Source of the DNA: Planctomycetota bacterium
GTDB taxonomy: Bacteria > Planctomycetota > UBA8742 > JACQVU01 > JANLHZ01
Assembly: GCA_024653775.1 (NCBI GenBank)
Contig: JANLHZ010000126.1
Span: 1 to 38,520, forward strand
Direction of reading: 5' to 3'
Length of the DNA: 38,520 bases
Shown: positions 6,726-17,368 of the stretch, piece after piece
Position numbering within the stretch: position 1 is the stretch's first letter
How the letters are laid out: each line of letters starts with the position of its first letter
Program-made: the position numbers and the translations under genes
The notes under the pieces: generated by a model
What the model was told of the DNA's origin: nothing
Databases searched by the model: none
Seen by the model: only the letters and a program-made list of their open reading frames with translations

Positions 6726-8228
6726 TTATCCGTTCTGTTCGTCCGAATCGAGGGATTTCTTTTCCGCGCTCAGAATTCCGGAAATCCTCGCGATGGAGTC
6801 TTCGATCCGCGCGAGTTCCTTCTCGAGATTTTCGACTTCCGTCCGCTGAGTTTCAAGCCGCGATTTGACGAGCTGGCTAGACGTAGTCAGCTCAGCGAGT
6901 TCGAGCGCGAGTTCGCGGTGGGTTTCGAGGCTGAGCGCTCTGTGTTTATCCATTTCCGTCTCGTAGATGCCGAGGAGGCTATCGAACCGTCCGAGGAGTC
7001 TGTCGAATCTGTCGTGCGATAATAACTCGATGATCGGGGACTTGTCACGCTTTCGTTTCACGGGGGCCTCGACGAATTTTATCAGCCTGTGGTACGTGAT
7101 GTCCCAGGTGAACCGCTCCCGCGCGAGTTTCGCCGCGCCTTCCGCGCGACGCTCGGTCTCTCTGTGGTTCTCGATGACTTCGACCGCCGCGGCTCGAATC
7201 TGCTCCGCGTCGTCCGGATCCACGAGCCAACCAGCGTTGTACTCCTCGATAAGCGGCGCAAGTTCCGTGTTCTTCGGATGGATCACCGGAAGTCCCGCCC
7301 AGAGGTACGTCACCGTCCGCGTCGGGAACGCAAGCTCGCGCTCCGAATTCGTGGTCATCACGTCGATCGCCGCGGTGGACGCGCACAGCTCCGTGACAAG
7401 CTCCTCGAAGTTCAGGAGGTCGCTGGCGAGAAGCCTTCCGCTACTACCGATCTTGGAAAGGAATTCGCCCCTCGAAAGCGTGGGCATCGACTTCGTGTAT
7501 CTCGATCTCGCGTCGAAACCGATGTTGGTCGAGTGGGAGCCGACGATCACGCGGAGTAAACCGTGGTTCCGTTTTTCAAGAAGATCGAGGGTTGTCTTCA
7601 GCGCGAGGTGCGGATCCTGCCAGGGCCAGAGCAGCCCGCCGTAGAAGAACGTCGGCTCCTTCGAAGGATGACGCTCCGGAAGCTGCGGATCGAATCCGAC
7701 CGGCGCGATCTCGACGGGGATGTTCCTATAGTCGACTCCCGCCATCAGAAGCCAGGGTACGTGGTACTTCTTCTGCGCCGCGCTCGACACGAGGAAGAGG
7801 TCCGCCATCGAAAGCGCCTGCACCTTCGCGATAACGTTCTGACTGAAGTTCCCGTGGCCGCGGTAGAGGTTTTCGAGGATCAGCGGGCCTGGAATGTCGA
7901 TCACCGTCGGGAGCGGCACGTCTCCGACCCACGCGGTTAAGGTCCACTGCTCGTAGATCAGGACGTCCGGAAGCAGCCGCGTTATCAGCGACTTCGCGCT
8001 GTCCGGCGTGTGCGCGCTATCCTTCACCCACGTCGGCGGATTCTGAAGCTGATCGACAACCGCCTTCGGAAGGGAGAGAATCACCTCGTGGCCCCGCGCC
8101 GCGAGAGCTTTCATCATTCCGTGTACACGCACGCCGCCGCCGCCGACGGGAATCCCGAGGCCGGGCACAGGCTCGGTGGAGAAAATCAAAACTCGTCGTC
8201 GGACTCTTCCTGGCATTACGAAGGGCAA
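6726..8228 (-). CDS. Glycosyltransferase (GT-B, family 4-like) with C-terminal coiled coil
   Basis: A 500-residue protein. The N-terminal Rossmann half starts with RRRVLIFSTEPVPGLG and has the typical glycine-rich acceptor loop GGGGVRVHGMMKALAARGHEV. The second half carries FFYGGLLWPWQDPHLAL and the donor-binding stretch ELAFPTRTVTYLWAGLPVIHP, as in GT4/GT1 enzymes. After about residue 390 it becomes a helical, charged tail of some 110 residues with heptads, probably a coiled coil for oligomerisation. It likely transfers a sugar to a cell-surface glycan or glycolipid; donor and acceptor are unknown. The TTG start at 8228 is chosen because GGGAG lies about seven bases upstream; the next in-frame ATG at 8216 has none. 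The adjoining element at 6675-6723 separates it from the lipoprotein gene. Confidence 0.82.
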   Translation of the reverse strand: MPFVMPGRVRRRVLIFSTEPVPGLGIPVGGGGVRVHGMMKALAARGHEVILSLPKAVVDQLQNPPTWVKDSAHTPDSAKSLITRLLPDVLIYEQWTLTAWVGDVPLPTVIDIPGPLILENLYRGHGNFSQNVIAKVQALSMADLFLVSSAAQKKYHVPWLLMAGVDYRNIPVEIAPVGFDPQLPERHPSKEPTFFYGGLLWPWQDPHLALKTTLDLLEKRNHGLLRVIVGSHSTNIGFDARSRYTKSMPTLSRGEFLSKIGSSGRLLASDLLNFEELVTELCASTAAIDVMTTNSERELAFPTRTVTYLWAGLPVIHPKNTELAPLIEEYNAGWLVDPDDAEQIRAAAVEVIENHRETERRAEGAAKLARERFTWDITYHRLIKFVEAPVKRKRDKSPIIELLSHDRFDRLLGRFDSLLGIYETEMDKHRALSLETHRELALELAELTTSSQLVKSRLETQRTEVENLEKELARIEDSIARISGILSAEKKSLDSDEQNG

Positions 8229-8274
8229 TGATAAACTCCCGCCGCCACGCGCTGAAGCCTGTAATCAGAAATGG

Positions 8275-8416
8275 GTAACTGTTCACGGGGTAGTTCGCAG
8301 TCTATAGCGGGAATCTGTTCGTAGTGTGCTCGTAAGAGCATATTTCCAGATAGTAGAGGATCGAAGAAACGCCTTACGGCGCCACTACGAACGCGAACTG
8401 CCATGTGAACAGTTAC
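8275..8416. mobile_element. 142-bp MITE with 24-bp terminal inverted repeats and 8-bp target duplication
   Basis: The left end starts GTAACTGTTCAC at 8275 and the right end finishes GTGAACAGTTAC at 8416. The arms match over 24 bases with three mismatches. AGAAATGG occurs directly on both sides (8267-8274 and 8417-8424), a target-site duplication of 8 bp. GTAA ends with 8-bp duplications are the IS66-family pattern. Inside are a second inverted repeat (GTTCGTAGTG 8317-8326 with CACTACGAAC 8383-8392) and two small hairpins with GTAA (8327-8340) and TTAC (8370-8381) loops. It has no coding capacity. It occupies most of the 261-bp gap between the glycosyltransferase start and the end of the acidic membrane protein gene; I see nothing else in that gap. 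Confidence 0.85.
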
Positions 8417-8489
8417 AGAAATGGATCATTGAGTCGCCGGCTTTTATCAGACCTAAAACGCATCTAAAAGTCGAACGACAGCCTGCGTC

Positions 8490-10994
8490 CTACATCAACC
8501 CTTCGCCGAGGAAGATCGTGCCGCCCGCGACACAGCCTCCCGCGATGAGGATTCCGAAGAAGTGAAGCAGCAGCGACTTCTTGCTGATCCCCCCGAACGC
8601 GCCGAGCACGCTGACCGCGCCTCCGCCAAGGAGGAGGTACGACCCGAGTTCGAGTCCCTGCGCCTGTTTCGAAAGCAGAAGCGCGAGCGGAACTATCGCG
8701 ATCCCGCCGCCGAGCACGCTAAGGAACGTCGTAAAGAACCCCGGCGATTTCCGTTTGAGGAAAAGGAACCTGCCGACGAGAATCACGCCTACCGCCAGCG
8801 GCGCGATGAACAGCATTCCGAGCAGGTCGGCGTTCAGAAGCCTCGCGTCCTTCGCGACTCCAGTGACTTTTTCGAGCGCGCCTTCCATCACTCCCCATCC
8901 GCCCGAGAAAGTCTGGACGATTACGTTCAGCCCGGAATCCACCGGAGCGTCGCTGCCCCAGGTCACCTGGCCGGTCAGGGTCTTGAAATTCGCGAACGGC
9001 ATCACGACGCCAAGGATCAGCAGCAGCCCGCCAATGAAGTGCAGGAAGGAGATGAACTTGACTCCCGCGGACTCCGCTTCCTGCGCCTGCCTCCGCTCGG
9101 CGAAGGATGAAAGCTGCTCGCTGCTTTCCTCGCTGACTTCGTCTTCGTCGAAGCTGAGGTCGGATTCCACGGACGCGTCCTCGTCCTCATCTGAAATCTC
9201 TTCGAGGGAATCTTCGTCGTCGGACTTCTCTTCGTCCTCCTCCGTGATTTCCTCGAGTTCATCGAGTTCATCGTCCTCGTCCGAAATCTCATCGAGTTCC
9301 TCGTCCGTCGCGCCGGCTTTGTCTTCTTCTTCGTCGTCTGCGCTTTTCTCTTCCTCATCCTCGTCGATTTCAGACAGTCCGGAAAGTCCGTCGTCGTCCG
9401 TGCCGGCTTCTTCGGAGTCGCCCGCTTCTTCGGAGTCGCTATGATCGAGGTCTTCTTCAAGCTCCTTCTCGATGTCCTTGACCTCGCTGTCTGTAACCTC
9501 GGATAACGAGAACTCGTCGTCGATCACATCCTCGTCCCCGGAGCCGAGACCTTCCGCGTCGGTAGCGTTCTGGTCCTTCTCTTCGTCGTCAATGAGATCG
9601 AAACCCTCCGCGTCCGTCGCGGCACCTTCCTCCTCGGCCTCATCATCCCGGCCCGCGCCTGCGTCCGTCTCGTCCACGCCTGCGTCCGTCTCGTCCGCGG
9701 ACTTCTCGTCGTCGATCAGATCGAATCCTTCTTCCTCTCCAGAGAGTTCGTCGATGCTCGCAACCTTCTCCACCGGCGGCTCGACGATGCTGTCTTCGAG
9801 CGGTTCAGATTCTCCGTCGTCGATCAGTTCGAAACTCTCCTCGTCCGCGGAATCCTTCTCCCCGGACTCCTTCAGATCGAAACCTTCCGCGTCGGTCGCG
9901 TCGTCCATTCCGGCACCGGAATGCGCGTGTTCGGGCGTGCCGTCGTCGAAAACGAACTCGTCTTCCACGACATCATCCGCGGCTTTCGACGACGCTTCAA
10001 AAGCAGGTTCGTCCCCCGGTTCGAAAGGCTCCTCGTCGGAAGGAAGCTCGTCGAAGCTGAATTCCTCCTCCACGAGTTCTTCCGTGCTCGTTTCCTCGGA
10101 CTTGTCCTTCGCCGGGGAAATCGGCGCTAGATTCGGATCGCTGAACCTTCCTCCTACGACTGCGTCCTCCTCCGCGAATTCGTCACTGGCGAACTCGTCC
10201 GACGACGGGGAGATCATACTGTCGCGAACTTCTTCGTCGCGGACAGGGTCCATTCCGTCCGCGTCGGTGTCAGCCGAAAGCGACGAGGGTTTGTCCGAGT
10301 CGACGAACTCTCCCTCCGGGGCCTCGAAACCAGGCGGCGACGCGCTTTCCGTATCTTCGTCCCACACTTCCTCGGTCGCGCTCGGTCGACCGGCGTTCGC
10401 GGGCTTCTCGTCGAGTCCCATAAGCGCAAGCTTATCCGCGATCCCGCCGCCCCCCGATGGAACGGAAGAACTCGCGGCGGATTCCGCGCGGCCCATTCTG
10501 CGCATCGGAGTCGCGTCGCCAGACTCCTTCAGAGGAATAGTGCTCCCGGCGGGCGCGTCCTCCCGTGCCATCGTTTCCGTCGACTTCACCGCGAAACGTT
10601 CGTACTCGCGCCAGATTCCTTCCGCCTGGCGCTTGTTCATCGTTCCCTCGTCGATGAGGATTTCGTCGACCGCTTTCACCGTGTGCAGGGTTTTGAAAAG
10701 CGTCGCCTGCACCGCGAGCGCGTTATCGACCTGCTCCTGATCCACGAATCCCTTGCGCACTGCGCGGCGGGCGAACTTCTTGTCCTTTTCCCTTCGATTG
10801 GCGTATTCCACCGCGCTCGCGATAGCGTCGACCTTGCGGGTGTCGAGCGCTCCCTGCTCCACGAGGACGTCGGAGAGAGGCCTTCCGCCGCCGCCGTTTT
10901 CAAGCTGTTTCATCGCCGCGTCGAGCTGGGACTGCGACACGGCTTTGTTCTTGAGCGCTATCTGGCCGAAAAGTTCGTCTTCCCGAGTTATCAT
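8490..10994 (-). CDS. Large acidic membrane protein with GspE-N-like N-terminal region
   Basis: An 834-residue protein in three parts. Residues 1-140 contain two or three helical modules (REDELFGQIALKNKAVSQ, LSDVLVEQGALD, AVDEILIDEGTMNKRQ) like the N-terminal MshEN/GspE-N domains that bind cyclic di-GMP or partners in secretion ATPases. Residues of about 190-630 are a strongly acidic, low-complexity linker with repeats of the type EGFDLIDDEE. The final 200 residues hold about five transmembrane helices, starting VKFISFLHFIGGLLLILG. No ATPase domain is present. The ATG at 10994 is chosen over an upstream TTG (11033) because GGAG sits six bases before it. It is cotranscribed with the exported TPR-like gene upstream. 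A role in signalling or scaffolding at the membrane is inference. Confidence 0.7.
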   Translation of the reverse strand: MITREDELFGQIALKNKAVSQSQLDAAMKQLENGGGGRPLSDVLVEQGALDTRKVDAIASAVEYANRREKDKKFARRAVRKGFVDQEQVDNALAVQATLFKTLHTVKAVDEILIDEGTMNKRQAEGIWREYERFAVKSTETMAREDAPAGSTIPLKESGDATPMRRMGRAESAASSSVPSGGGGIADKLALMGLDEKPANAGRPSATEEVWDEDTESASPPGFEAPEGEFVDSDKPSSLSADTDADGMDPVRDEEVRDSMISPSSDEFASDEFAEEDAVVGGRFSDPNLAPISPAKDKSEETSTEELVEEEFSFDELPSDEEPFEPGDEPAFEASSKAADDVVEDEFVFDDGTPEHAHSGAGMDDATDAEGFDLKESGEKDSADEESFELIDDGESEPLEDSIVEPPVEKVASIDELSGEEEGFDLIDDEKSADETDAGVDETDAGAGRDDEAEEEGAATDAEGFDLIDDEEKDQNATDAEGLGSGDEDVIDDEFSLSEVTDSEVKDIEKELEEDLDHSDSEEAGDSEEAGTDDDGLSGLSEIDEDEEEKSADDEEEDKAGATDEELDEISDEDDELDELEEITEEDEEKSDDEDSLEEISDEDEDASVESDLSFDEDEVSEESSEQLSSFAERRQAQEAESAGVKFISFLHFIGGLLLILGVVMPFANFKTLTGQVTWGSDAPVDSGLNVIVQTFSGGWGVMEGALEKVTGVAKDARLLNADLLGMLFIAPLAVGVILVGRFLFLKRKSPGFFTTFLSVLGGGIAIVPLALLLSKQAQGLELGSYLLLGGGAVSVLGAFGGISKKSLLLHFFGILIAGGCVAGGTIFLGEGLM

Positions 10995-11036
10995 TATCTT
11001 CTCCGTGGAACCGTAAAGGGGCGGGGATTCCAAAAT

Positions 11037-16030: not shown

Positions 16031-17368
16031 CTACTGATGGTGGTGCAGGCTTTCCTGCAGGTACGGATCGCCGGACGGGACGAGGTTCGCCTTGCCGAGG
16101 TAGGTGAACGTCGCGAGTACGAACATTCCGATCGCGCCGAGGAAGATTCCGATTTCGGTCCAGCCGAACACGGGTGCGCTGTAGTACGCGGGGAACACCA
16201 TCAGGTAGAGGTCCAGCCAGTGTCCGACGAGAATCACCGCGCTTGTCGCGAACATAATGTTCATGTTGCGCTTGTTCGGTCTCGGAAGCAGCGCGAAGAA
16301 CGGCAGCACCCAGTTCACCCCGACGTTCAGGAAGAACAGGAACCGATACTCGCCGTTGAATCTGACTTCGTAGTAGCCGACCTCTTCGGGCATGTTCGAG
16401 TACCAGATAAGCATGAACTGGCTGAACCAGATGTACGCCCAGAACGTGCTCATGCCGAACATCAGCTTGCCGAGGTCCTGGAAATGCTCTTCGTTGACGA
16501 ACGTCAGATAGCCGCGACGTTTCAGCAGGATCGTGATCATCGTGATCATAGCGAGACTCGAAACGAAAAGCCCCGCGAAGCAGTACACGCCGAAGATCGT
16601 AGAGAACCAGTGCGGCTCGACGCTCATTATGAAATCGACGCTCGCCGCGGAGAAGCTCAGTCCGAATAGCGGCAGGAAAATGCTCGACACCTTCAGATTG
16701 GCTTTCGTGTGGCTGACGTTCTTGTCCATATCCTGCTTGCGCGAATTCTTGACGAGAAGGTTCGCAAGCCCGATCCAGATGAGCAGGTAAAGCACCATCC
16801 GCACGTAGAAGAAATTCTTGCTTAGCCACCAGGATTTAGAATCGAGAATTTCGTCCGCGGCGCGAAGCTCGTCTGCGCTCTCTTCGCCCTCGGCTGAGCC
16901 GGTCTTCTCGTGGGCTTCCGACTTGTGCGCCGGCGCGCTGTAAACCGGAGAAACCATCAGCGGACTGCTGCCGCCTTCCGTGGCCGCACCGCCTTCTTCG
17001 TGGGCCGCCTCGGAAGGATGCCTCGGAAGGGACCAGCTATAAAGGTAGCTCATGCCGAGAACCACCACGATCGTCGTTACGATGGTGATCGGAAGCGCCT
17101 TGGTCATCGCCTCCGGAATCCTGCGGACGACGACGCTCCAGCCCGCGCCCGCGACGTACTGCAGCGCGATCCAGAACGCGCCGCCCAGCGCGAGCGTCAG
17201 AAGATAGAAGTGTGAGACGAGGACGTTCGCGAAAGCTCGCAGTTCGCCGGCTTCCTGGAAATACTGCCAGAGAAACGTGATCGCGCCTATGACTATCATT
17301 GCTATCGCGGCGTTCTTCATCCTTGGCGACGTTTTGTAGGTGACGTTTTCGACGTGTGCGTCAGACAT
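16031..17368 (-). CDS. actF: Alternative complex III, quinol-side membrane subunit ActF
   Basis: A 445-residue integral membrane protein with about ten helices, matching the ActF subunit in length and order of motifs: an early SHFYLLTLALGGAFWIALQYV helix, a charged loop of about 50 residues rich in E, H and S, then FFYVRMVLYLLIWIGLANLL, SVDFIMSVEPHWFSTIFGVY and SQFMLIWYSNMPEEVGYY. ActF and ActC are related to the NrfD family and anchor ACIII, which oxidises quinol and passes electrons through ActB, ActA and ActE. GAGGG lies six bases before the ATG. It is the last gene of the act operon; no oxidase subunit genes follow, unlike in many organisms where cytochrome oxidase genes come next. Confidence 0.9.
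   Translation of the reverse strand: MSDAHVENVTYKTSPRMKNAAIAMIVIGAITFLWQYFQEAGELRAFANVLVSHFYLLTLALGGAFWIALQYVAGAGWSVVVRRIPEAMTKALPITIVTTIVVVLGMSYLYSWSLPRHPSEAAHEEGGAATEGGSSPLMVSPVYSAPAHKSEAHEKTGSAEGEESADELRAADEILDSKSWWLSKNFFYVRMVLYLLIWIGLANLLVKNSRKQDMDKNVSHTKANLKVSSIFLPLFGLSFSAASVDFIMSVEPHWFSTIFGVYCFAGLFVSSLAMITMITILLKRRGYLTFVNEEHFQDLGKLMFGMSTFWAYIWFSQFMLIWYSNMPEEVGYYEVRFNGEYRFLFFLNVGVNWVLPFFALLPRPNKRNMNIMFATSAVILVGHWLDLYLMVFPAYYSAPVFGWTEIGIFLGAIGMFVLATFTYLGKANLVPSGDPYLQESLHHHQ

Follow-up and report, generated by a model that had tools for sequence, protein, structure and literature searches.

Several described kinds of bacterial elements come close to the repeat considered here. Elements of the IS66 TnpC-only type (e.g. 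ISUnCu16) carry terminal GTAAC(C/T/G)GTTCA(C/G), imperfect inverted repeats and an 8-bp target-site duplication (TSD); MITEs are short and non-coding, have terminal inverted repeats (TIRs) and a TSD, and occur in numerous, mostly intergenic copies. GTAG-headed REPs and RAYTs have a published description (PMC3733652); REPINs and GTAG-tagged REPs (PMC3116915, PMC3733652) present two facing GTAG-headed palindromes.

A 142-bp element found in the window, i.e. the whole 38,520-nt stretch of Planctomycetota DNA analyzed here, shares all the features just listed, but differs from each kind. Unlike the IS66 elements, it has no transposase gene, its length is 142 bp as compared with ∼1.5–2.6 kb, and its interior is unrelated to tnpC. 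Unlike other MITEs, it belongs to a family whose parent element was not found in the same genome and whose interior is made up of a different repeat family, not of what is left of a parent IS. Free copies of its core are arranged in the same way as the core itself; however, unlike a REPIN, the core is enclosed by IS66 ends and 8-bp duplicated targets, and no REP-flanked RAYT was found. Finally, IS66 deletion derivatives in a Thermoflexus MAG (G394; loci L269, L353 and L362) are similar in having GTAACCGTTCACGGGG ends and sub-kilobase length; they encode a TnpC fragment, whereas the window family encodes none. We characterize the window element as a new nested variant, a MITE with IS66 ends and REPIN cargo. 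In a full-text literature search, with subscription papers mostly and ISfinder outside its scope, we found no description of IS66-derived MITEs or of these sequences as transposon ends.

The element and its family in the genome

The element occupies the gap between two minus-strand ORFs (Table 1) and, judging by the ORFs of the window, codes for no gene. The predicted anatomy was borne out: the boundaries are placed exactly, the imperfect 24-bp ends are 88% complementary, and the 8-bp direct duplication is exact. An inner inverted pair (8317–8336 and 8373–8392) is 80% complementary; the facing GTAG-headed hairpins read CGTAGTGTGCTCGTAAGAGCA from 8320 on the plus strand and CGTAGTGGCGCCGTAAGGCGT from 8389 on the minus strand, and the core from GTAG to CTAC takes up 68 bp (8321–8388). 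The folding energy of the element strand is −68.2 kcal/mol (z = −7.7 relative to dinucleotide shuffles). Within the window, the pair of end sequences was found only this once.

Table 1. Features of the 142-bp element and of its surroundings (window coordinates)
Feature	Position	Strand	Remark
Neighbouring gene, glycosyltransferase-like (PF00534)	6726–8228	−	Element lies just upstream, before the next gene
Left target-site duplication, 8 bp, AGAAATGG	8267–8274	.	TSD length in the family: 8 bp
Whole non-autonomous element (MITE), 142 bp	8275–8416	+	Aligned copies begin and end at these bases
Left terminal inverted repeat; outer 16 bp, GTAACTGTTCACGGGG, match termini of IS66 elements	8275–8298	+	
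Shell-specific subterminal segment with AGTCTATAGCGGGA	8299–8316	+	22/22 occurrences in the sampled genome are in or near shells
REP-like unit b: GTTC and GTAG head, hairpin TGCTC-GTAA-GAGCA	8317–8343	+	
Central spacer of the core	8344–8365	+	Two sequence versions in the family; missing from compact free REPINs
REP-like unit a, inverted: GTTC and GTAG head, GTAA-loop hairpin, GCGCC/GGCGT stem	8366–8392	−	
Right terminal inverted repeat	8393–8416	−	21/24 with the left one
Right target-site duplication, 8 bp, AGAAATGG	8417–8424	.	
Neighbouring 847-aa ORF, acidic, hydrophobic C-terminal part	8490–11033	−	No Pfam match

The host assembly (5.42 Mb, 331 contigs, 96% complete) is fragmented, and contigs often begin inside these elements; several start ∼76–100 bp inside a copy. 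Our copy statistics cover ∼1.5 Mb, about 28% of the genome, plus loci centred on hits. The 40 candidates scored in the genome were nearly all full-length, with 87–96% identity to the window copy, while the 12-mer end GTAACTGTTCAC (at most one mismatch) occurred 265 times in the genome as compared with 7 times for the reversed control. The genome has roughly a hundred copies of the 142-bp element. Lengths of the 67 end-to-end elements peaked at 141–142 bp; 30 of them had exact 8-bp duplications and 42 had duplications matching in at least 7 of 8 positions, with 0.9 expected from shuffled flanks. Exact duplications of other lengths abutting the element were few among the 67: at most one for each length from 4 to 7 bp, and three of 9 bp. 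As ∼40 full-length or nearly full-length copies exist in the genome and the exact 8-bp duplication dominates, the window element is a real multi-copy unit rather than a chance arrangement. With its short non-coding sequence, TIRs, constant-length TSD and many dispersed copies it is a MITE, as originally predicted.

The A+T share of the targets was 66%. A search with the whole element in 40 relatives gave no match beyond its own genome; the nearest of these relatives belongs to another family of the same order.

Two copies, L007 (contig C44) and L033 (contig C23), are flanked on one side by the same 18 bp and on the other by different sequences, and L007 has no matching duplication; either the copies have recombined, it would seem, or a contig is chimeric. 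The 11-bp repeat that flanks yet another copy, L022 (G000:C310:41114-41255), is inverted rather than direct (left ...GCGCGCTGAAGG, right CCTTCAGCGCGT...).

IS66-type ends in other genomes

The predicted assignment of the ends to IS66 holds by end homology, since the same termini and exact 8-bp duplications are seen in full IS66 elements. Complete elements elsewhere have GTAAC(C/T/G)GTTCA(C/G) at their ends and are flanked by exact 8-bp duplications. Plasmid-borne elements with ends matching those of the window element are ISUnCu16 of Aeromonas (ends GTAACGGTTCACCC/GTAACCGTTCACCGGG, TSD gtcttgaa, 8/8) and the IS66 elements of Nostoc (end GTAACCGTTCACAGG, duplication 8/8) and Kovacikia (end GTAACTGTTCAG, duplication 8/8). 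For ISKpn15 (L216) and the IS66 of Nostoc commune (L219) we saw no clean end pairs with a TSD.

We scanned the end GTAACYGTTCACGGGGT across genomes of 85,000 species. Among the matches listed was a 2577-bp IS66 element from Desulfobacterales (L301) with ends GTAACCGTTCACGGGG/GTAACCGTTCACGGCT, the former being the exact 16-bp end, a TSD aataattg (8/8) and an intact 494-aa TnpC (PF03050 at 1.8e-37). Its genome holds 46 GTAACCGTTCACGG ends; the counts in all three genomes with such an end beside IS66 sequence were 46, 38 and 19, as compared with 0 in controls, and several TnpC loci were present in these genomes. Next to tnpC, the Desulfobacterales element has another gene, which encodes a DruA domain (L301:2366-3256, minus strand; PF14236, E 1.1e-31) and lies inside the same ends and duplication.

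In the Thermoflexus MAG, elements of ∼430–545 bp between such ends retain a TnpC fragment. These are internal-deletion derivatives of IS66; therefore, internal deletion of IS66 to sub-kilobase size is seen directly in this genome. A disrupted IS66 bounded by GTAACCGTTCACACCCC was present in the phylum of the window (L196), and a relative of the same order had an IS66 C-terminal relic adjoining GTAACCGTTCACCCCC (L197). In other genomes from this class, the IS66 elements (L207–L215) did not show the exact GTAACCGTTCAC end, and viral contigs with the end gave two single-end matches, with neither IS66 nor a paired end.

The same ends enclose other sequences as well. In the window's own genome, a 221-bp element (L116, exact TSD AACTTTTA) holds another palindrome and a 154-bp element (L155, exact TSD GGCGGATA) holds the CCCTCTCCCTC palindrome. 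Among the matches listed from other genomes, unrelated interiors between these ends came from genomes labelled, among others, Desulfobacterales, Bacteroidia, Acidobacteria, Parachlamydiaceae and Planctomycetota; 17 of 33 elements from other genomes had a duplication of at least 7/8 (0.5 with shuffling). Some of the other-genome elements contain TCATTGCGAGG or TCATTCTGAGC repeats, which we take to be widespread dispersed repeats. One could speculate that IS66-type ends are a general bacterial vehicle, the same ∼16-bp ends repeatedly enclosing unrelated dispersed palindromic repeats: GTAG REPINs, CCCTCTCCCTC and GGACGTCC-type palindromes here, TCATTGCGAGG/TCATTCTGAGC elsewhere. Some abundant repeat families would then owe copies to IS66 transposases, and the window element would combine two independent mobilization systems. 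This idea is a tentative one, and we would sooner doubt it than accept it.

In 7 of the 33 other-genome elements (L353, L362 and L196 among them) the exact 8-bp duplication was seen only with one extra base, located between the left duplication and GTAAC. The palindrome GCGGACG..GACGTCCGC, a common dispersed repeat as yet unassigned, had 53 matches over both strands of the ∼1.5 Mb sampled from the window's genome, 50 of them outside IS66-type shells.

The REPIN-like core

The hairpin pair of the core consists of GTTCGTAGTG-TGCTC-GTAA-GAGCA and an inverted GTTCGTAGTG-GCGCC-GTAA-GGCGT. Hairpin-forming occurrences of GTAGT in the genome amounted to 178 of 1570 (11%), as compared with ∼3–4% for permuted pentamers. 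The core, as the prediction had it, is REPIN-like, since its GTAG hairpin pair is also found without IS66 ends, in compact free units of 45–47 bp from GTAG to CTAC that keep the order of unit b followed by inverted unit a (e.g. GTAGTGTGCCCGTGAGGGCATATAAACGCCTGACGGCGCCACTAC). In the sampled ∼1.5 Mb, 13 listed GTAG pairs had no shell ends nearby: 10 compact ones (45–47 bp; one at a contig start), two shell-like cores and one in a tandem cluster. The exact motif of unit a was found 144 times genome-wide, shells included; among 198 genomes sampled from the phylum, one other contains it. The two defining traits of REPINs, a pair of inverted GTAG-headed imperfect palindromes and dispersed copies independent of other elements, were thus both observed.

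The shell stems (TGCTC, GCGCC) differ from most of the free stems (mostly TGCCC, ACGCC); REP subtypes GTGGCGCC and GTGTGCTC were seen inside shells, and GTGACGCC and GTGTGCCC in most free units. By this difference of stems, the two populations are related but distinct, and neither is necessarily a direct descendant of the other. In two shells of 118–120 bp (L051 and L053) the core is a compact one, joined at the same points (L053: 120 bp, TSD 7/8), which is consistent with a single capture.

At L151, ∼16530–16780 (G000:C301), GTAG-headed hairpins are repeated in tandem every ∼58 bp.

Origin and mobility of the family

We consider it very probable that the element is a MITE with IS66-type ends, moved in trans by a TnpC-only IS66 transposase and carrying a REPIN as a captured passenger. 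A DDE transposase of this kind would have recognized in trans the ∼16-bp ends GTAAC(T/C)GTTCACGGGG, and insertion, mostly between genes, would have produced the 8-bp target duplications. Judging by the common junctions, a REPIN may have been captured once between IS66 ends and then amplified as a passenger by the IS66 system, with the IS66 TnpC presumably since lost from the genome or not assembled. A high-copy repeat family, previously unassigned, is tied in this way to a specific transposase family: by the sequence of its ends, by the length of its TSD and by complete IS66 elements whose 16-bp end is the same. The element is also a concrete example of a non-autonomous unit with a repeat of a different kind inside it, and offers a testable route by which bacterial palindromic repeats may spread without an enzyme of their own.

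The original prediction went further: the insertion was to be recent, and the genome was to hold a source of transposase. That the MITE was active until recently, and that a functional IS66 transposase still resides in the genome, seems unlikely to us. Many TSDs are indeed intact; also, at 96% completeness and with the assembly breaking inside elements, a multi-copy IS66 could have been lost in binning. However, profile searches for TnpC (PF03050) and TnpB (PF05717), as well as a six-element TnpC profile at E ≤ 0.1, gave no match in the assembly, fragmented as it is at these repeats; not even fragments of an IS66 protein were found, in contrast with the Thermoflexus MAG, where they are plentiful. 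No long element with these ends (260–8000 bp, TSD at least 7/8) turned up in the ∼1.33 Mb of this genome that was inspected for one. Furthermore, the copies are ∼8% away from the consensus (median identity 92%; also 92% for the window copy) and ∼5% from the nearest neighbour (median), the best pair being 98% identical, and TSD integrity did not follow divergence in the sampled copies. With such distances the expansion of the family is not fresh, therefore a recent insertion is not supported.

As the assembly is fragmented, with contigs often starting inside elements, the absence of IS66 is an absence from the assembly and not necessarily from the organism. With tnpC absent from both the element and the assembly, the element is not an autonomous IS66. 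The prediction was to fall if there were neither other copies nor an IS66 transposase with matching ends; other copies are plainly numerous, and IS66 transposases with matching ends exist in other genomes only, three of which do have, for their own elements, a matching IS66 in the same genome. Thus, of the original interpretation, the MITE with many copies, the IS66-type ends and the REPIN-like core stand, and the recent insertion with a resident transposase does not.

It is improbable that selection maintains the hairpin for a role as RNA or in regulation (as a terminator or mRNA stabilizer), its spread being secondary. The strong fold would agree with such a role, as would the location of copies, 28 of 35 copies in longer stretches being mainly outside genes (by a crude ORF set) as compared with 10% of random intervals. 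But an intergenic bias is also expected from selection against gene disruption, compensatory change was seen in 0 of 35 pairs (covariation in 27 copies), and the gaps used were convergent (8), divergent (8) or tandem (10) with no clear preference.

Eight-base-pair duplications are also made by other DDE families (IS256, ISL3, ISAs1), so TSD length by itself does not single out IS66; yet a mover from such a family is highly improbable, as the terminal 12–16 bp match IS66 specifically, and one complete IS66 element has both the exact 16-bp end and an exact TSD.

To the idea that a RAYT (Y1) transposase moved all 142 bp as one REPIN, with incidental GTAAC ends, we give hardly any credence: GTAG hairpins and free REPINs are present and three Y1 proteins are RAYT-like (below the NCBIfam cut-off), but Y1/HUH transposases are not known to produce 8-bp TSDs, the shell is missing from free REPINs, the same ends with other interiors (L116 and L155) have exact TSDs, and no GTAG hairpins were found within ∼1.5 kb flanks of the three RAYT-like genes. 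The TSDs contradict movement by RAYT for the shell; the core alone may have moved in this way.

A partial Y1 transposase domain was also seen, in frame and mid-way, in a 783-aa PurH-like frame (MGS and AICARFT/IMPCHase domains) at L205:388-2736 (minus strand; G000:C288).
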